A stretch of DNA of 64,000 nucleotides from positions 3,720,001 through 3,784,000 of the forward strand of contig NZ_CP109796.1 of the NCBI RefSeq assembly GCF_038725785.1, given 5' to 3'. This DNA is from Termitidicoccus mucosus (lineage in GTDB: Bacteria; Verrucomicrobiota; Verrucomicrobiia; Opitutales; Opitutaceae). Of this stretch, positions 3,066 through 57,554 are shown one piece after another; the stretch's first letter is position 1; every line of letters starts with the position of its first letter. The notes below the pieces were generated by a model. It was given only the letters and a program-made list of their open reading frames with translations. It ran no database searches and was not told where the DNA came from. The translations under genes and the position numbers were made by a program.

Positions 3066-3356
3066 TTTTATATAACCGCGAAGAATACGAAGGGCGCGAA
3101 AAATATAATACCATTCCCGAACTATTTATAGACTTATCATGGTAGGGCGAGGCGTCCCGCCGAGCCGCGAACCGTTCACGGCTCGGCGGGACGCCTCGCC
3201 CTACCTGAATATAAATTTCGTTTGGAAACGATATAAGGGCCGGGTGCCACTCAACGTGCTGTCAGGCCGGGTGGCGCGGGCCTCTCTTTGCATCCCACCC
3301 ATAAAACCGGCACGCATTTTTTCCGCGCTCTTCGCGTCCTTCGCGGTTATATAAAA
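3066..3356. repeat. Nested inverted-repeat elements filling the gap (outer family E)
   Basis: This 360-base gap holds no gene. Outer arms (about 3066-3103 and 3317-3356) are imperfect reverse complements built on ACCGCGAAG and CGAAGG words. A complete family A palindrome (3141-3205) sits inside. Bases 3206-3316 show nothing recognisable. The nesting suggests that one element inserted into another. Confidence 0.75.
3141..3205. repeat. Family A palindromic element, 27-bp perfect arms
   Basis: Arms 3141-3167 and 3179-3205 are exact reverse complements (start GGTAGGGCGAGGCGTCCCGC), with an 11-base loop. The same 27-bp arm and a similar 11-base loop recur at 47992-48056. A one-sided copy is at 6683-6708. 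The bases just left of it (ATACCATTCCCGAA) also recur left of the 47992 copy, so the mobile unit is larger than the palindrome. Confidence 0.9.
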
Positions 3357-4738: not shown

Positions 4739-4866
4739 GCGCAGGCATCCTTGCCTGCCGTCCTCAAAAGGTCGCGCGAAGCGCGGCATTTTTCCGAGAG
4801 AAAGAGAATCAGCGGCGCGGCGCGCCTTTGGTTTCGACGGCAGGCAGGATGCTACGCTACGAAACG
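4739..4866. repeat. Family D inverted-repeat element, copy 1
   Basis: Arms 4745-4762 and 4836-4852 share the words GGCATCC/GGATGC and CCTGCC/GGCAGG. The 70-base loop (GCGCGAAGCGCGGCATTT, then a GAGAGAAAG run) reappears in reverse orientation in the larger copy at 43490-43680. The element lies between two minus-strand genes and occupies much of the 282-base gap. Confidence 0.8.
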
Positions 4867-10217: not shown

Positions 10218-10358
10218 ATGGCCCAAAAAACCACAAAGACTGCCAAGAAAGCCGTCGCCAAAAAGGCTCCGGCCAAGAAAGCTGTAGCCAAGAAGGCTCC
10301 GGCCAAGAAAGCCGTTGCCAAGAAGGCCCCGGCCAAGAAGGCAGCCAAGAAGAAATAA
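10218..10358 (+). CDS. Lys/Ala/Pro-rich histone H1-like peptide
   Basis: A 46-residue, extremely basic peptide starting MAQKTTKTAKKAVA and built from three near-identical units of the form AKKAVAKKAP, ending in KKAAKKK. The 30-base repeat units are visible in the DNA. Such sequences resemble the C-terminal tails of eukaryotic H1 and the bacterial Hc1/HctB or AlgP-type nucleoid proteins, which bind DNA without sequence specificity. A strong terminator begins 22 bases after the stop, supporting a real, separately transcribed gene. It is short enough to be missed by automatic callers. DNA compaction is inferred from composition only. Confidence 0.8.
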   Translation: MAQKTTKTAKKAVAKKAPAKKAVAKKAPAKKAVAKKAPAKKAAKKK

Positions 10359-27091: not shown

Positions 27092-28414
27092 TTACACAGC
27101 TTCGCCGGCCGGTTTTATGATATCCTTGCTTCGTATAAAGAACGCCATCACGAGCGCGGCGCACGGATGCAGGAAGCCCATCACGATAAAAAGCGTGTCC
27201 ATGCCGAACAAGGTGGCCGCCTGGCCGATGAGCCAGTTGAACACGATCGCCCCCGTCGCGCCAAACGCGCCCGCGATGCCGTAAACGCTGGCCACGTTTC
27301 CCACCGGGAAAATTTGCGCGATGATGGGCGCGATGGAGCCGAGCCAGGCGTTGCACAACACGGCGATGATGCAAAACAGCACGATGGTCGGCATGATGGG
27401 CATATGAGGTATCAGCCAGCAAAGCGGCCCCGCCACCGCTGTTGCCATGACGAGATATTTGCGCCCGCGCAGGCCGGCGAGCTTGGCGCGGTGGTCGGAC
27501 AGCGCGGTGAACGCCAGTCCGCCGAGCGTCGCACACAAAAACGGAATCCACCCAATGACACCGAGCAGTCCAATGGAAACCTGCTTCGACTCCTGCAAAT
27601 ATCCCGGCATCCAGAACAGACAGAAATACCAAACCGGGTCACTGAGAAGCCGCACAAGGATCACGCCCCAGAGCGGACGCTGCCGCCAGAGCCGGCCCCA
27701 CGGAAGCGGCGGCGCGGCGGCGGCGGGTTGCGTGGCATGGACGTCCCCGCCCATGTTTTTCGGGGATGGCGGCGCGGAGCACCGTCGCACGGGCGGGTCG
27801 CCCGTGCCACCCGATCCGGCTGACGGCTCCCGGTATTTCGTCCACCACAACCACGCCAGCATGATCCCGAGCGCGCCCGGCACGACGAAGGCCAGTCGCC
27901 AGTGAAAGTGAATCGTCAGCCATGCGATGATGGGCACCGCCGTGATGCTCCCGATGCTTGTCCCGATGGTGGCGAGCGCCATGAAGACCCCGCGGTTTTT
28001 ATCCGCCGCCCAGACGGTGGACACGCGCATGGTCACCGGAAACAAACCCGGCTCCGCCAGCCCGAGAAAACCGCGCAAAATAATCATCAGCCAAAGCGTG
28101 TGCGCAAGCCCGCAGCCCACCGTCACCAGCGACCACACAAACACAAACAACGTCAGCGCCATCCTTGGCCCGATGCGGTCCACCACCCAGCCGCTGCCGA
28201 TATAGGCAAGGGCGTAACAGGCGGTGAAGGCGTTCACAAGCAGCGCGTAGCCGGAATCGTCAATTTCGAACGCCGCCTTGATGGTCGTCTTGAGGACGGA
28301 GACGGTCTGCCGGTCAAACTGGTTCAGGTAGCCGATGAAAATCAGCAGCCCGAGAATCAGCCAGCGGTAGTTCGGCGAGAGCGGCTTCGCGGCGGCGGGG
28401 TTTGCGACGATCAT
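27092..28414 (-). CDS. MFS transporter of the anion:cation symporter (ExuT-like) group
   Basis: A 440-residue, 12-helix transporter. The N-terminal WLILGLLIFIGYLNQFDRQTVSVL and the stretch RGFLGLAEPGLFPVTMRVSTVW match the ACS family, which includes hexuronate (ExuT) and aldonate carriers. Proton-driven uptake of a sugar acid or related anion is the best guess. The central cytoplasmic loop (residues about 202-228) is encoded by an inserted family C palindrome. The ATG at 28414 is preferred to an upstream TTG at 28438. It follows the TonB receptor gene by 20 bases and is presumably cotranscribed with it. Confidence 0.9.
   Translation of the reverse strand: MIVANPAAAKPLSPNYRWLILGLLIFIGYLNQFDRQTVSVLKTTIKAAFEIDDSGYALLVNAFTACYALAYIGSGWVVDRIGPRMALTLFVFVWSLVTVGCGLAHTLWLMIILRGFLGLAEPGLFPVTMRVSTVWAADKNRGVFMALATIGTSIGSITAVPIIAWLTIHFHWRLAFVVPGALGIMLAWLWWTKYREPSAGSGGTGDPPVRRCSAPPSPKNMGGDVHATQPAAAAPPLPWGRLWRQRPLWGVILVRLLSDPVWYFCLFWMPGYLQESKQVSIGLLGVIGWIPFLCATLGGLAFTALSDHRAKLAGLRGRKYLVMATAVAGPLCWLIPHMPIMPTIVLFCIIAVLCNAWLGSIAPIIAQIFPVGNVASVYGIAGAFGATGAIVFNWLIGQAATLFGMDTLFIVMGFLHPCAALVMAFFIRSKDIIKPAGEAV
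27732..27810. repeat. Family C palindrome inserted in the MFS transporter gene
   Basis: A 79-base unit with inverted ends (GTGGCA/TGCCAC) and two internal hairpins (CATGGACGTCCCCGCCCATG; CACGGGCGGGTCGCCCGTG). Its central GCGGCGCGGAGC is shared with the unit at 36493-36570. It lies in the loop between the two six-helix halves of the transporter and does not stop the reading frame. Confidence 0.87.
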
Positions 28415-28434
28415 GGCACGGGACTGGGATTTGT

Positions 28435-30648
28435 TCAAAACCTGACCTCGATGGAACCGGCGAAGGTGCGCGGCATGCCGTAGAAATTATAAGAGGAAAA
28501 ATATTCCTTGTCGGTCAGGTTGTTGATCTCGCCGCGAAGCGTGACCGGCATTTTCCCGACTTTAAAGGAATAGGTGAGGCTGAGGTCGAGCTTGGTATAG
28601 GAGGGCGCCTCAATGCCGGGCTGGTCCCACCAGCCGAACTGGGTGCGGCGGCCGGACATGTATACGACGCCCAGCCCGCCCGCCAGTCCCTTGAGCGCGC
28701 CATTGGAAATGCGATAATGGTTCCAGAGCGTGACCTGGTGCTTGGGCACGTTGGCGACGCGGCCGAGGCGCTGGACGAGATTCTGGTAGGCCTTGACGAC
28801 TTCCGCATCGATATAGGAATAACCAAATGTGAGCTGCCAGGGCTTCGCCGGTTGCGCCTGGAGCGTGAACTCCACGCCCTTGCTCTCTATTTCACCGGAG
28901 GCGATGTAGTAGCCCGAGTGATCGGGGTCGGTGCTGGCGGTGTTCCTCTGCTTGAGCGAATAGGCCGTGACCGTGCCGGAAAGCTTGTCCTTGATGATAT
29001 TGTATTTGAAACCGAAGTCCCAGCCCTCGCCCTCGATGGGGTCGATCAGCTTGCCGTCGTAGGTATAATAAAGCGGCTGCGGATTGAAGGACTGGCTGAA
29101 ACTGACGAAGGCCGACAGCCCGGGAACGATTTTATAGGAAGCTCCGTAAGACTGGACGATATTGTCGTCGGTGGACTGCTGGCGCGAATTAACGGCCGGG
29201 TCGATGTTCTTTAAAATATTATCGATATAGGTGTAACGAATGGATTGAAGGAGAGTAAGGCGCCGCTTGAAGAATTGCAGGATGTTGTTCATCGAAACAC
29301 TCTCATAACGGGCGAGGGTGCGGCGAAGGGTAAAGATGTCAAAATCGGACGGCGCGCCGAAGTCATAATTGCTGGGGCCGTTTTTATCGAGATAAACCCG
29401 CGGAAGGACTCCGGTGAAGGTTCTCCGGTAGATGTCGTTCTTCGTATCAAAGTAATAATAGTCGGCGCCGAACATGAGCTTGTGGTCTATCCCCCAGTAT
29501 TGAAACTGCCCCACCGCGTAAACCTGCGGATTGACGGCATAGCTGACCGCATCCGGCATGTAATCAATCTGGGTGCGGGAAACGGCCCGGACTCCGCTGG
29601 GATCGGCCGCGCCCGTGGCGGGATTCACCAAGACAATCTGGGACCCCATGCTGGGGAGCAGGCGCGCCACATCCTGATAGGTGTACATGAGGCCGACACG
29701 GAACGTCCATGCGCGGTTGAGCTGATACGTAAAGTCGGTCAGCGCCGAGACCTGGTCCGTGTTGGCGTAGGCATTGGGACCGTAGCTGTTGAACGAGTGG
29801 GAGACATCGTGAACGTAGGTCCGGGTGCTGGCGCCGGTAAGCGTATAGTAACCGATGTCCGCGCTGGGAATGACCTTGCTGCGGATGAACTGGACATCGG
29901 ACTGGAGCGTGATCTTCGAACTCGGTTTCCAAAGCGCGGTGCCCGCGACGACATGGCGCTTGCGGTTCGCGAAATCCTGATGCGAATCGAAATCCTCGTA
30001 AACCGCCGCGAGGCGGTAGGAGAGGGATTTGCTCCGCGTGAGCGGACCGCCATTGACGAGTTGCGCGCGGAAGCGGTCATAGCTTTCGTAGCGGCTGGAA
30101 AGGGATGACGACTGCTTCGCGGGCGGTTTGCGGGTGATATAGTTGCGGGTGCCGCCGGGCTCGATGGGGCCGGAAAAGGTGGAGGACGGACCTTTTATGA
30201 TTTCGATGCGGTCAAGCAACACCGGGTCCACGATGAAGGACGAAGGGAAGCCGTTGCGATAAGAGGTGCTGGTCTGGATGCCGCGGATAATGAAACGCCC
30301 GCCGTAGGCATCGTCCGCGCCGGGAGTGTCGTCCGCGTAGGTGATGCCGGCGGAGTATTGCAACGCCTGCTGCATGTCGATCGCGCCGATGTCCTTGATG
30401 AATTCGGAAGTGACCACATCGACCGTCTTCGGGAGTTCAAGCAGGTTGGTGTTCAGGCGCGTGCCGGACACGGCGTTGGTGGCGCCGTAGCTGTCGTCTT
30501 TCTGGTCCCTCACCTCAAATGGCGTGAGGACAACGATGTCTCCTTCGTCTTCCGGAATGGCCGGCGAGGTGCCGGTTTGTTGCGCGCCCAGGATGCAGGG
30601 TGCGAGCAGGAGGACCGGAAATAAACGCGTCAGTTTGGGTGTGCTCAT
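28435..30648 (-). CDS. TonB-dependent outer-membrane receptor
   Basis: A 737-residue receptor. Signal peptide residues are about 1-22 (LFPVLLLAPCILGAQQ). A TonB box-like segment DIVVLTPFEV is followed by the plug domain (SGTRLNTNLLELPKTVDVVTSEFIKDIGAIDMQQAL; RFIIRGIQTS; LLDRIEIIKGPSS). The 22-strand barrel follows and ends in SIEVRF, the aromatic C-terminus needed for assembly. The plug is of the FhuA/siderophore-receptor type, but in this phylum such receptors often sit in glycan loci; context (transporter, hydrolases, phosphorylase) suggests an oligosaccharide ligand. An in-frame ATG at 30741 would put 31 polar residues before the signal peptide and is rejected. Confidence 0.93.
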   Translation of the reverse strand: MSTPKLTRLFPVLLLAPCILGAQQTGTSPAIPEDEGDIVVLTPFEVRDQKDDSYGATNAVSGTRLNTNLLELPKTVDVVTSEFIKDIGAIDMQQALQYSAGITYADDTPGADDAYGGRFIIRGIQTSTSYRNGFPSSFIVDPVLLDRIEIIKGPSSTFSGPIEPGGTRNYITRKPPAKQSSSLSSRYESYDRFRAQLVNGGPLTRSKSLSYRLAAVYEDFDSHQDFANRKRHVVAGTALWKPSSKITLQSDVQFIRSKVIPSADIGYYTLTGASTRTYVHDVSHSFNSYGPNAYANTDQVSALTDFTYQLNRAWTFRVGLMYTYQDVARLLPSMGSQIVLVNPATGAADPSGVRAVSRTQIDYMPDAVSYAVNPQVYAVGQFQYWGIDHKLMFGADYYYFDTKNDIYRRTFTGVLPRVYLDKNGPSNYDFGAPSDFDIFTLRRTLARYESVSMNNILQFFKRRLTLLQSIRYTYIDNILKNIDPAVNSRQQSTDDNIVQSYGASYKIVPGLSAFVSFSQSFNPQPLYYTYDGKLIDPIEGEGWDFGFKYNIIKDKLSGTVTAYSLKQRNTASTDPDHSGYYIASGEIESKGVEFTLQAQPAKPWQLTFGYSYIDAEVVKAYQNLVQRLGRVANVPKHQVTLWNHYRISNGALKGLAGGLGVVYMSGRRTQFGWWDQPGIEAPSYTKLDLSLTYSFKVGKMPVTLRGEINNLTDKEYFSSYNFYGMPRTFAGSIEVRF

Positions 30649-34089: not shown

Positions 34090-34758
34090 TCAGGCTGTCG
34101 GAACGGAGGCGGCGGGCAGCAGCCGGTCGAGGCCGGAGACCACGAGATCCGCATCGCGCAAAATCGCCGCGTCTCCGATGCCCACCACGCGCATGCCCGC
34201 GCGCCGGGCCGCCTCCACGCCGGCGGCGGCGTCCTCGAACACCACGCAGTCGGCCGGCGCCAGCGCCAGCTCCCGCGCAGCCAGAAGGAAGACCTCGGGA
34301 TCGGGCTTGGCGTTGGTCACCCTGGTGCCGTCGATCACCGCATCGAACAACCCGGCGATGCCCAGCCGTTGCAGGATCATCCCGGCGTTTTTGCTCGCCG
34401 ATCCGAGCGCGACGCGGCGTCCGGCCGCGCGTTGCGCCAGAAGATAGTCGCGCGCGCCGGGCAGAAGCTCGCTTCCGTCCATGCGCGCGAGGGACTCGAC
34501 ATACCAGCGGTTCTTTTTCTCCGCGAGCGCGGCCTTCTTTTCCACGCCGAGGGAAAGCCCCCCGGCCTCCAGCAATAGCTCCAGCGAGCGGGCGCGGCTC
34601 ACGCCCTTGAGCCGTTCGTTGTCCGCAAGGCTGAACTCGAAGCCGAGTTCGGATGCGAGCCGCCGCCACGCAAGGTAATGATAGCGGGCCGTGTCGACGA
34701 TCACGCCGTCGAGGTCAAAAATGGCGCCGCGCGACTGAAGCATCGGGTCGTTGATCAT
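34090..34758 (-). CDS. pgmB: Beta-phosphoglucomutase (HAD superfamily)
   Basis: A 222-residue HAD phosphatase-fold mutase. Motif I is FDLDGVIVDTARYHYLAWRR, with the nucleophile Asp and the acid/base Asp two residues on. The cap specificity loop reads ERLKGVSRARSLELLLE. Motif II/III appear as VALGSASKNA and NAKPDPEVFLLA, and motif IV as CVVFEDAAAGVEAA. It converts beta-glucose-1-phosphate to glucose-6-phosphate. The gene lies 11 bases after the GH65 phosphorylase gene, the classic pairing with inverting maltose, trehalose or kojibiose phosphorylases that release this very sugar phosphate. Confidence 0.95.
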   Translation of the reverse strand: MINDPMLQSRGAIFDLDGVIVDTARYHYLAWRRLASELGFEFSLADNERLKGVSRARSLELLLEAGGLSLGVEKKAALAEKKNRWYVESLARMDGSELLPGARDYLLAQRAAGRRVALGSASKNAGMILQRLGIAGLFDAVIDGTRVTNAKPDPEVFLLAARELALAPADCVVFEDAAAGVEAARRAGMRVVGIGDAAILRDADLVVSGLDRLLPAASVPTA

Positions 34759-34769
34759 GGCTGGAAGAT

Positions 34770-37253
34770 TCACGCGGTTGCCGTGGCCGAGGTGATGGTC
34801 TCGCCCGGCGCGCAATCGCGGCGCGCGCCGCCGTGCAGCTCAAACGCCGCCGGCGCGGTGTTCGCCGCATCGGCCGTCACGGTGATCGCGGCGCGCGTGA
34901 CGCGCACCGCGAACCATTGGCCGCGCGTGCAGAAACGGAACGCCAGGGCGCGCCATGCGGACGGCAGTATCGGATTTACGGATACGAAATCGCGCGCCAT
35001 GCGCAGCCCGCCGAAGCCGAGCACGGCGGTCATCCACGCGCCGCCGTTCGCCGCCGGGTGCGTGCCGCCGATGTAGAGCGGGCCGACGTATTGTTTTGAG
35101 TTGCCCGTCAGGTCGATGGTCGCGGTCTTGAGAAAGTAGCGATACGCCCAGTCCGTCTTGCCGATGTCGGCCGCCACGAGCGCGTAAACGCACGGGCTGA
35201 GACTGGAACCGTGCTCGGTGCGCGGCTCGTAATACTCCCAGTTGGCGCGCTTGACCTCGTCGGAAAACTCGTCGCGAAACAGGTGCGTCATCAACACCAC
35301 GTCGGCCTGCTTGATGACCTTGGTGTTCGCCGCCACGCCGTGGGTCGCGCCCCAGTATTCGTTCGGCTTGATGACGCGGGCGCGCACCTCGGCCAGGCTC
35401 GCGTCCTCCAGCCGGCGGTAGCCGTCGAATTGCTCGATGATTCCGGTGCCGGGCGCGGGCTGCGGACGGTAAAGCGCCGCCGCCATCTCCTCCAGCCGGC
35501 GCGCGTCGTCCCCGTAGTCGAGGCGCGCGACCAGCTCCGCACGGGCCGCCTGCGCGTGCTCCGCCAGCAACGCCAGCGTGTCGAGGGCGATGCGCAGCGT
35601 GGCCGCGACCATGGCATTGGTGAAGGCGTTGTTGTCCACGCGCTCGTGGTATTCGTCGGGACCGACGACATCGCGCAGCTCAAACCGGCGCGTGTCGGGA
35701 TTGATGCAGGCGCGGGAAAGGAAAAAACGCGCGCACTCCAGCACGACCTCCGCGCCCGTGCCGGCGAGGAAGCCGAGGTCGCCCGTCTGCTCGAAATGCC
35801 GCCACACCGCCACCGCCACATCGGCGCTGATGTGCACCTGCCTGTCGCGGAAATATGTGCGCAGCGGACGGCCGGTGAACACGTCGGTGACGTTGAAATA
35901 CGTGCAGGCGTCGTCGCCCGTCTCCTGGCTTTCCCACGCGTAGAACGCGCCGCGAAACCCGAGGTCGGCCGCCTTGCGCCGCGCACCGTCGAGCGTATGC
36001 CGCCGGTAGGCGAGCAGCCGCCGCGCCGTCTCGGGCTGCGTGTGGTTGAAGAACGGCAGCATGAAGATTTCCGTGTCCCAAAACACGCCGCCCTTGTAAA
36101 CCTGTCCCGACAGCCCGCGCGCCGGAATCGACACGCGATCCGAGTGCCCCGGCGCGATGATGAGGAGCTGGTAGATGCTGTGCCGAAGCGCCAGTTGCGC
36201 CCCGTCGTCACCCTCGATTTGCACGTCCGAGCGCGCCCAGCGCTCCGCCCAGACCGCGCGGTGCGCGGCAAGCAGCGCATCGTAACCGGCGGCCCGCGCC
36301 GCGCGGCAGGCCGCCGCCGCGGCATCCGCGGCGGACGGCGCGGGGCGACCTTCCCCATCCACGCCGTCGTCCGCGAAAATCGCTATGTATTGAACAAATG
36401 AATACTCAATGCCGGCCCGCGCGACGAGCGTCATGCGACGAAGAATCCTGGGCGCGCCGATTGCCCCGCTGTCGCCGGAGACAGCGGATTGAGTGGCACG
36501 GGCGACTCGCCCGTGTTCTTCGGCATTCGCGGCGCGGAGCGCCGCCGCATGGGCGAGTCGCCCATGCCACCCTATCATTTCGTCGCCGCGCAAATCGTCC
36601 TTGGCAAACGCCGGCTCCACCGCGGCCGCGACGGCCACCGCCCGTCCCTGTTCCTGCGTGCGGGCGGCGAGCCGCATCACGCCGCCGCGTTCAGACTCGG
36701 CGAAATCCCGCAAATGGGGGCCGTTCAAATCCCACACGTCGCCGTCGATGCCCGCCTCGATGACGAGCCGGCAGCCGCCCGATGTGCTCACCGCGAAACG
36801 CAACGCGCCGATATGCGTGTCGGCCGCGCTCAGGAAACGTTCCGCCCGCAGCGTCACTTCGCAGCCGTCATCCAGGCGGAACACCGTTTCACGCGAGTGC
36901 AGCGCCGCGCGCAAGTCGAGCCGCTGGCGGTGCGCGGACGGCGCGCGCGACTCCGGCGACAGCAGTTCGCCGTCGAGCCACACGCGCACGAAGAAGGGAT
37001 TCGGGGCGTTGACCGGCTCGCGCCATTTCCCCGGGACCTGGTCGTAGAGCCCCGCCAGCGTGCAGGCGGCGAGCTGCCGCCTGGAAAATTCCTCCAGCGT
37101 GCCGCGCACACCGGCGCGCCCGTTTCCGATCATGAACTTGCAGCCGTTCTTCTCGATGGCCGCCGGGTCAAACGCGGTGTCCTCCACCATCCAGCCGCGG
37201 CTGGCGGACGGCGGTGCGGGGTGCTGACGGAAGCTTTCTTTTATCGCGGTCAT
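34770..37253 (-). CDS. Glycoside hydrolase family 65 disaccharide phosphorylase
   Basis: An 827-residue GH65 enzyme. The N-terminal beta-sandwich has GWMVEDTAFDPAAIEKNGCKF and FMIGNGRAGVRGTLEE. The (alpha/alpha)6 barrel shows SGQVYKGGVFWDTEIFMLPF and the catalytic general acid Glu in DVVGPDEYHERVDNNAFTN. A phosphate-site-like segment lies late in the barrel (KQADVVLMTHLF; TEHGSSLSPCVYALVAA). GH65 enzymes phosphorolyse maltose, trehalose, kojibiose, nigerose or similar alpha-glucosides to beta-glucose-1-phosphate. Residues about 229-254 come from an inserted family C palindrome in the N-terminal domain. The start at 37253 is chosen since the additional 31 residues upstream lack similarity. It is coupled to pgmB. 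Confidence 0.92.
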   Translation of the reverse strand: MTAIKESFRQHPAPPSASRGWMVEDTAFDPAAIEKNGCKFMIGNGRAGVRGTLEEFSRRQLAACTLAGLYDQVPGKWREPVNAPNPFFVRVWLDGELLSPESRAPSAHRQRLDLRAALHSRETVFRLDDGCEVTLRAERFLSAADTHIGALRFAVSTSGGCRLVIEAGIDGDVWDLNGPHLRDFAESERGGVMRLAARTQEQGRAVAVAAAVEPAFAKDDLRGDEMIGWHGRLAHAAALRAANAEEHGRVARATQSAVSGDSGAIGAPRILRRMTLVARAGIEYSFVQYIAIFADDGVDGEGRPAPSAADAAAAACRAARAAGYDALLAAHRAVWAERWARSDVQIEGDDGAQLALRHSIYQLLIIAPGHSDRVSIPARGLSGQVYKGGVFWDTEIFMLPFFNHTQPETARRLLAYRRHTLDGARRKAADLGFRGAFYAWESQETGDDACTYFNVTDVFTGRPLRTYFRDRQVHISADVAVAVWRHFEQTGDLGFLAGTGAEVVLECARFFLSRACINPDTRRFELRDVVGPDEYHERVDNNAFTNAMVAATLRIALDTLALLAEHAQAARAELVARLDYGDDARRLEEMAAALYRPQPAPGTGIIEQFDGYRRLEDASLAEVRARVIKPNEYWGATHGVAANTKVIKQADVVLMTHLFRDEFSDEVKRANWEYYEPRTEHGSSLSPCVYALVAADIGKTDWAYRYFLKTATIDLTGNSKQYVGPLYIGGTHPAANGGAWMTAVLGFGGLRMARDFVSVNPILPSAWRALAFRFCTRGQWFAVRVTRAAITVTADAANTAPAAFELHGGARRDCAPGETITSATATA
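36493..36570. repeat. Family C palindrome inserted in frame in the GH65 gene
   Basis: A 78-base unit (26 codons) with inverted ends GTGGCA/TGCCAC. It has two internal hairpins (CACGGGCGACTCGCCCGTG and CATGGGCGAGTCGCCCATG) and the shared centre GCGGCGCGGAGC. On the gene strand it adds peptide WHGRLAHAAALRAANAEEHG. The MFS copy is read in a different frame. Confidence 0.9.
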
Positions 37254-43432: not shown

Positions 43433-43489
43433 TAGATTGCCTTTCGTTTATTCTGTCTCAACTGGCAGGGTCGGCTCGCGTGTCTGTTT

Positions 43490-43680
43490 AGCGTGATTAC
43501 TGCTTCGCGCGGCAGCGCGCGTAGCGCAGGCATCCCTGCCTGCCGTCGAAACCGAAGGCGCGAAGCGACGCCGACTTTCTCTCTTTCCCCTAATAAATGC
43601 CGCGCTTCGCGCGATCACATCAGGACGGCAGGCAGGATGCCTGCGCTACGCGCGCTGCCGCGCGAACCTGAAATCACGCT
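43490..43680. repeat. Family D inverted-repeat element, copy 2
   Basis: Nested arms: AGCGTGATT (43490-43498) with AATCACGCT (43672-43680), and an about 40-bp arm 43507-43547 with 43624-43663 (GCAGCGCGCGTAGCGCAGGC on the left). The loop contains GCGCGAAGCGACGCC and an ATTTATTAG-side word that reappear reversed in the copy at 4739-4866. It fills most of the 296-base gap between alkD and hemH. Confidence 0.87.
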
Positions 43681-43728
43681 CAATGGATACCTTCACCGGC
43701 AAAGCCCCTCACATATATCCCAAGCTTT

Positions 43729-47932: not shown

Positions 47933-47991
47933 ACTTTCGCGACGAAGCGCGCATGCGCCCCGCTTTTCATACCATTCTCGAATCATCTAAT

Positions 47992-48056
47992 GGTAGGGCG
48001 AGGCGTCCCGCCGAGCCGCGAACAGCCAACGGCTCGGCGGGACGCCTCGCCCTACC
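47992..48056. repeat. Family A palindromic element, 27-bp perfect arms, copy 2
   Basis: Arms 47992-48018 and 48030-48056 are identical to those at 3141-3205, with an 11-base loop starting CGAAC in both copies. The left flank ATACCATTCTCGAAT also matches. It lies between the convergent pirin and GH106-like genes, where it may act as a bidirectional terminator. Confidence 0.92.
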
Positions 48057-48115
48057 GAAATATGGATTTTGCCCGGAGATGGCATTGCCGGTCCGGGCCC
48101 TGAAAACGCCGGTTG

Positions 48116-57392: not shown

Positions 57393-57547
57393 TCTTTCTC
57401 TTTATTCTTTATCTTTCCTCTTTCTCTTTCGTCAGGAACAGGGAACAGGGAACAGGGAACAGGAACAGGAACAGGGAACAGGGAACAGGGAACAGGGAAC
57501 AGGGAACAGGGAAGAGAAAGAGGAAAGATAAAGAATAAAGAGAAAGA
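57393..57547. repeat. Family B inverted repeat, 35-bp perfect arms, with a GGGAACA minisatellite in the loop
   Basis: Arms 57393-57427 and 57513-57547 are exact reverse complements over 35 bp (TCTTTCTCTTTATTCTTTAT...). The loop is almost entirely a tandem array of GGGAACA with a few GGAACA units (57435-57511, about 11 units). The right arm ends 7 bases before the stop codon of the LptF/G gene. Confidence 0.95.
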
Positions 57548-57554
57548 TAAAAAA

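Follow-up and report, generated by a model that had tools for sequence, protein, structure and literature searches.

The BIMEs, or REP dimers, of enterobacteria and Pseudomonas are mainly extragenic. REPs inside genes were reported by Di Nocera, De Gregorio and Rocco in 2013 (PMC3733652), and that paper describes the GTAG type as commonest in Opitutus terrae, where the GTAG-20 units are mostly GTGG-tagged and the REP-bearing genes named encode RNA helicases, UvrA and DNA ligase. In the same paper, REPs favour convergent and unidirectional neighbours, and intragenic insertions may be neutral owing to their position in flexible linkers or loops, the inactivating ones being lost; the authors also find it questionable that insertions should be without effect when so many repair genes have them. 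The Rickettsia palindromic elements (RPEs) are described, in a 2024 review, as inserting in frame and as about 150 bp long (PMC10969869).

We analysed a stretch of 64,000 nucleotides from Termitidicoccus mucosus (the window; coordinates refer to it unless the genome is named). We consider it very probable that a GTGG-tagged REP dimer inserted here into an N-terminal loop of a GH65 protein, kept the reading frame and was tolerated under selection. The features concerned are the following:

34773-37253, minus strand: GH65 glycoside phosphorylase gene that bears the insertion (ORF of 827 aa counted from the probable start; the stop codon occupies 34770-34772)
34090-34815, minus strand: downstream ORF of 241 aa, by eye a beta-phosphoglucomutase-like phosphatase
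36485-36578 (about), no strand assigned: REP dimer in the GH65 gene, from an alignment of 25 genomic copies
36493-36570, no strand assigned: 78-nt core GTGGCA...TGCCAC, 26 codons long, not codon-aligned
36466-36487, no strand assigned: 22-nt perfect hairpin CCGCTGTC-GCCGGA-GACAGCGG adjoining the REP, read from the sequence

The dimer consists of two GTGG-tagged hairpins placed head to head with a short spacer between them and GTGG feet at both outer ends, and alignment of the 25 genomic copies gives a unit length of about 91–94 nt. An HMM built from these copies, the GH65 copy among them, matches the gene at 36486-36576 (E 9.5e-19), and the dimer encodes approximately residues 226–257. In the 7.92-Mb genome, GTGGCAYGGGCG, the core of the hairpin, is found 211 times in comparison with 25 occurrences of a reversed control pattern, and a whole-genome search with a 106-nt query returned at least 69 matches (40 of 250 candidates scored); the abundance of the repeat is far above chance. 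The element has the traits of the GTAG superfamily of REPs, being a short palindrome with a GTAG-like foot (the GTGG variant) and present in many dispersed copies, often as dimers. Its GH65 copy is 78–86% identical at the DNA level to the 24 next best genomic copies.

The window holds further repeats. A different palindrome, ending in a GTAG foot (GGTAGGGCGAGGC...), is present at 3139-3218 and 47990-48069 in copies that are 90% identical to each other; it is probably a second REP family. A composite inverted repeat with 56-nt arms, 88% complementary, occupies 43480-43690, and its inner parts recur inverted at 4752-4848. Tandem 15-nt repeats at 10242-10357 encode a lysine/alanine-rich stretch, histone H1-like by eye, and a G-rich GGAACAG tandem repeat at 57435-57554 is followed by purine-rich AAAGAGGAAAGATAAAG tracts that recur elsewhere in the window.

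The 78-nt palindromic unit that an earlier note had placed at 36493-36570 is there as claimed, reading GTGGCA...TGCCAC, and it does lie in frame: the GH65 gene is intact and its 827-aa ORF is open throughout. The note had further equated the unit with 26 codons and about 26 added residues. Its length agrees with this, but the core is not codon-aligned, and the closest homologue found, L132, lacks 37 residues that start after RGDE and end before APRILRR; an insert of 26 residues is ruled out by this gap, and a seven-sequence alignment puts the size at about 41 residues. The 37 extra codons correspond to the REP dimer plus the 22-nt hairpin at 36466-36487, which lies inside the gap against L132 and forms a separate stem in the RNA fold. 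As the excess takes in this neighbouring hairpin, 26 residues describe the REP core and not the whole extra segment.

The note had set beforehand, as the finding that would count against an insertion, the same segment in distant homologues. It was absent from 86/86 GH65 homologues of several phyla in one alignment (80 genome-collection loci and six others, including the genome's own second GH65 gene, L037) and from 32/32 homologues, mostly of the same family, in a second; the two sets overlap and contain a few duplicate sequences. The host's family includes G213, whose GH65 segment (L147) is identical to that of L104 (Opitutaceae). The alignment that the note had called for thus confirms the insertion and corrects its size. 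A few homologues, among them L069 and L074, have different expansions some way upstream of the insert position. In a nucleotide scan of 111 GH65 loci, some of which overlap one another, the element was found, at a threshold of E 0.01, inside the gene in one, the window's own. A weaker copy (E 0.00066) lies about 320 nt upstream of the GH65 gene of G007, where it was seen in two overlapping loci. A search for GH65 in both same-genus genomes (72% and 68% complete) gave no match at E 1e-50. The direct repeat GGCGAC at the flanks of the segment comprises six G+C-rich bases and may be due to chance. That the insertion postdates the lineage split from the nearest relatives examined is suggested by these alignments, and we hold it as part of our best explanation only, with the same high confidence. 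The opposite reading, that this GH65 subfamily has long had such a loop of its own and that the likeness to the repeat is accidental, draws on the variable length of this loop among homologues, L132 itself being a few residues longer than most others; with 78–86% DNA identity to genomic copies and with no homologue examined carrying the segment, we give it almost no credence.

The claim that the unit falls in the N-terminal domain was borne out. Pfam matches place the N-terminal domain of the GH65 protein at residues 26–292, the catalytic domain at 357–740 and the C-terminal domain at 750–808, and the N-terminal match spans 267 protein residues against 227 profile positions. We computed an AlphaFold2 model from a 41-sequence alignment (mean pLDDT 86, pTM 0.90). 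Confidence drops across residues 231–270 (pLDDT block means 55, 46, 33 and 60), where the insert lies between the strands 221–228 and 269–278 and includes a low-confidence helix at 229–246; residues 1–16 and 451–467 are likewise below pLDDT 50. Among solved structures, the 2-O-alpha-glucosylglycerol phosphorylases 4ktr and 4ktp come nearest, and superposition on 4ktr gives TM scores of 0.87 (query) and 0.94 (target), the GH65 fold being kept in the model despite the insert. The predicted structure is in keeping with an added, flexible loop in the N-terminal domain, and the earlier suggestion of a surface loop has only indirect support, from the low pLDDT of the segment flanked by the two strands.

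Among the homologues, an insert of 37 residues within a conserved domain is out of the ordinary, and the genome has a second GH65 gene, so one might see in this locus a decaying pseudogene that stayed open by chance after the insertion. Against this stand 827 codons free of stops and frameshifts, the presence of all three Pfam domains, the invariant columns of the catalytic domain, which are kept, and 72% identity to L132. Coding potential is found on both sides in one frame, but it is near zero on one side in the 180 nt beside the element. Taken together, we regard decay as most improbable; the enzyme is presumably made and active, and repeat DNA is supported by the alignments as a source of added protein sequence in this gene.

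To see this copy among the others, we surveyed 2.46 Mb of the same chromosome (positions 1.90–4.36 Mb, window included). Genes were called with a simple home-made hexamer gene finder, which marks 80% of the region as coding and makes cluster counts near the threshold soft. The repeat HMM gave 82 merged matches, of which 59 with E below 0.02 formed 55 clusters; the 23 matches left out (E 0.02 or more) lie outside (14) or inside (9) predicted genes and include a copy in the E2 gene (E 0.025) and one in a histidine kinase at 3963864 (E 1.2). Predicted genes hold 23/55 clusters, far fewer than expected from 80% of bases (P 6e-10, same gene finder), and genes are thus still avoided by the element. 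A comparison of 18/55 with 80% coding (4e-14) was set aside since only one side of it was curated, 23/55 being the like-for-like figure.

Judged by the coding frames of the flanks, 17 of the 55 clusters, in 15 genes, are in frame and open; coding is strong on both flanks in 12 and weak on one flank in five, and 6/17 of the matches are only 31–39 nt long. These 17 are what was kept from the 23 clusters in predicted genes. Among the six rejected, five (genome positions 2455153, 3264365, 3616958, 3799299 and 3928064) have flanks that are not coding in one frame, and 2618388 sits between an FtsX/MacB permease and an ABC ATPase; 3281537, first doubtful, was kept, as its near flanks share a coding frame and the cluster falls within a solute-binding domain. 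In one cluster both flanks are strongly coding, on one strand but in different frames, and by Pfam they belong to two different complete genes; among the 38 clusters not in frame, this between-genes case is the only one that has a same-strand predicted gene at most 40 nt away on either side. None of the 55 clusters was recognised as breaking the frame of a gene, though weakly coding flanks could hide some. Even with the rejected between-genes cluster counted as broken, the probability of 12 or more of 13 in frame, given one third, is 1.7e-5: in-frame copies exceed broken ones. The binomial with all 17 in-frame clusters (17/18, 9.6e-8) was set aside as lopsided, because it includes the five weakly coding in-frame clusters while 12 weakly coding clusters in other frames are not called broken.

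The 32/55 clusters outside predicted genes comprise 19 convergent, 12 codirectional and one divergent position. Intergenic copies thus lie at the 3' sides of genes and, as is typical of REPs, most copies are intergenic; the distribution agrees with the neighbour preference described in PMC3733652.

We searched for the hosts of the in-frame copies with Pfam, covering 10/15 genes, the remaining five being mostly very long proteins. The hosts include a UgpC/MalK-like ABC ATPase, dihydrolipoyl dehydrogenase (LpdA), a DUF5107/TPR protein (two copies), a solute-binding/permease ORF, CobN, an AAA/VWA protein like magnesium chelatase subunits (two copies), an MFS transporter in the window, GH65, MutL and a DEAD-box helicase. 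In MutL, the helicase and the AAA/VWA protein the copies fall between Pfam domains, and in dihydrolipoyl dehydrogenase, the ABC ATPase and CobN where the best solved relative is shorter. The MFS gene carries the second in-frame copy of the window:

27095-28438, minus strand: MFS transporter gene with the second in-frame copy (best NCBIfam match, below cut-off, to the D-galactonate transporter subfamily)
27725-27816, no strand assigned: REP dimer in the MFS gene (E 7.9e-19; ORF residues 208–239)

The MFS family model spans this element with a net gain of only about six residues, so no clean insertion is demonstrated there. Adjacent genes for the E2 component of a 2-oxoacid dehydrogenase and dihydrolipoyl dehydrogenase each contain an in-frame half-REP (L212:11697-14501; genome 3051697-3054501), that of E2 lying in the linker that joins the E3-binding domain to the catalytic one. 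The MutL REP dimer is located in an interdomain linker (L257:152-2146; genome 4000149-4002146).

The 2.46 Mb contain 37 copies of at least 60 nt with E below 1e-5, and any one of the six frames is free of stops in 28–35 of them. The element is thus almost free of stop codons in six frames, and an insertion with a length divisible by three is read through as protein. Stop codons are for the same reason not what forces a register, and the copies nevertheless share one: with only genuine insertions considered, 18/20 exact hairpins in the 17 in-frame clusters use a single codon register (P 2.3e-7 versus one third), as do 25/30 hairpins when up to two mismatches are allowed and 15/17 clusters with one vote each (P 4.5e-6). 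The favoured register encodes GTGVPPV-like and HGRDARAT-like peptides, while the register giving VAWASRP and WAGRPCH is not used by any exact hairpin of the 17 clusters. GH65 is one of two exceptions, its upstream half being in the rarer register and reading WHGRLAH. An earlier phase table was set aside as the control pattern proved phase-biased too, which we ascribe to G+C-rich third positions. A codon-phased preference for target sites could be an alternative source of the register bias.

The coding-strand RNA of a 126-nt stretch folds at −79.3 kcal/mol (z −6.35 versus shuffles), with the stem of the dimer present and the GTGG feet paired with each other. So stable a hairpin, together with the mostly convergent and only once divergent setting of the intergenic copies at gene 3' sides, is what one would expect if the REP were kept for a role in RNA or DNA, as an mRNA hairpin tuning phosphorylase–mutase expression or as a topology site, with the peptide as a by-product. 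The in-frame copies are, on the other hand, held by unrelated genes, more than a third of their matches are of the short 31–39 nt kind, and the register bias points to the protein level; we therefore judge such a role quite unlikely.

Comparisons with relatives were made from match coordinates only, taking the length difference between outer match ends. The element was found in 5/7 relatives searched (E 0.001): G001 and G002, of the same genus, and more weakly G005, G007 and G018. In G001, the MutL match runs through the element and is 219 nt longer, and E2 is 195 nt longer at the site, in a match that does not cover the element; in G002, LpdA and E2 have the start of the element in common and are 156 and 87 nt longer, respectively. 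Orthologous matches were sought for MutL of G002 and LpdA of G001, and none was found. All four same-genus length differences are multiples of three, as are 12/13 of the comparisons that the five relatives allow (counted by hand from the tables), the exception being E2 in G007, where the difference is +58 nt and the match ends in repeat-rich sequence. The copies in MutL (G001) and in LpdA and E2 (G002) thus appear, from the match coordinates, to be shared at the same place within the genus. In G125, of another genus, the LpdA match has a net deficit of 42 nt, which makes it probable that this genome lacks the 39-nt copy, and the MutL linker has repeat matches of its own.

Under the explanation that we prefer, a non-autonomous palindromic REP dimer, residing mostly between genes, would have inserted into a strand–strand loop of the GH65 N-terminal domain after the split from the nearest relatives examined and, its length being a multiple of three, would be translated as a peptide. 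Selection would purge frame-breaking and badly placed insertions, and those remaining would be tolerated peptide spacers, often in loops or linkers; the peptide in GH65 is presumably neutral. A bolder proposal, which we find doubtful yet worth stating, is that the REP is shaped for harmlessness in genes, with six nearly open frames and retention almost only in the one register that yields Gly/Pro/Arg-rich spacers (GTGVPPV, HGRDARAT). In this family, REPs would on that view keep supplying proteins with new linkers whose length changes by whole codons, gained or lost, inside a genus, and some of these linkers would be in use by core proteins such as MutL and 2-oxoacid dehydrogenase E2 and E3.

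As for mobilisation, a Y1/RAYT transposase is the presumed agent. The genome has Y1_Tnp matches at seven loci, and the fetched flank of one (L044) contains an element copy, which copy number alone could explain; a transposase linked to the element was sought among these seven Y1-type loci and none could be tied to it. At L040:1393-2064, a Y1-transposase-like ORF is flanked on either side by matches to a different type of palindrome, whose translation reads SAGILPAV, and is possibly a transposase with its own repeat family.

The locus offers a clean example of repeat DNA turned protein sequence in an Opitutaceae bacterium. The census converts an anecdote into countable data on in-frame versus broken copies, on register and on length changes between congeners, and whether the peptides are tolerated or used is now testable in proteins with known assays (MutL, LpdA and GH65). 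The open-access literature contains, among the matches listed, no account of this GH65 insertion, of a bias in register or of congeneric length differences that keep the frame; a search for "repetitive extragenic palindromic" in Opitutaceae by those terms found none, and the peptide motifs gave an unrelated match only. Intragenic REPs are already known in kind, and what is new is the GH65 insertion, the further genes, the counted excess of in-frame copies, the register bias and the sharing with congeners.

With the BIMEs and REP dimers of enterobacteria and Pseudomonas, and their RAYTs (TnpA-REP), the element shares the head-to-head dimer and the high copy number. It resembles the O. terrae GTAG-20 units, as described in PMC3733652, in being a palindrome with a GTGG foot that forms dimers, is mostly intergenic and has many units in known genes; it differs from them in occurring in another genus of Opitutaceae and in other target genes. 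From its GTGG tag, it probably belongs with the GTAG-20 family. The parallel that the earlier note drew with RPEs stands functionally and not taxonomically: in PMC10969869 and PMC3733652, these are palindromic repeats lying in frame in many unrelated protein genes and adding peptides, and the element here likewise lies in frame in GH65 and 14 further genes, whereas RPEs belong to Rickettsia, of a different phylum, and are longer at about 150 bp. The element is a GTGG-tagged REP dimer that acts like RPEs in a host outside Rickettsia.
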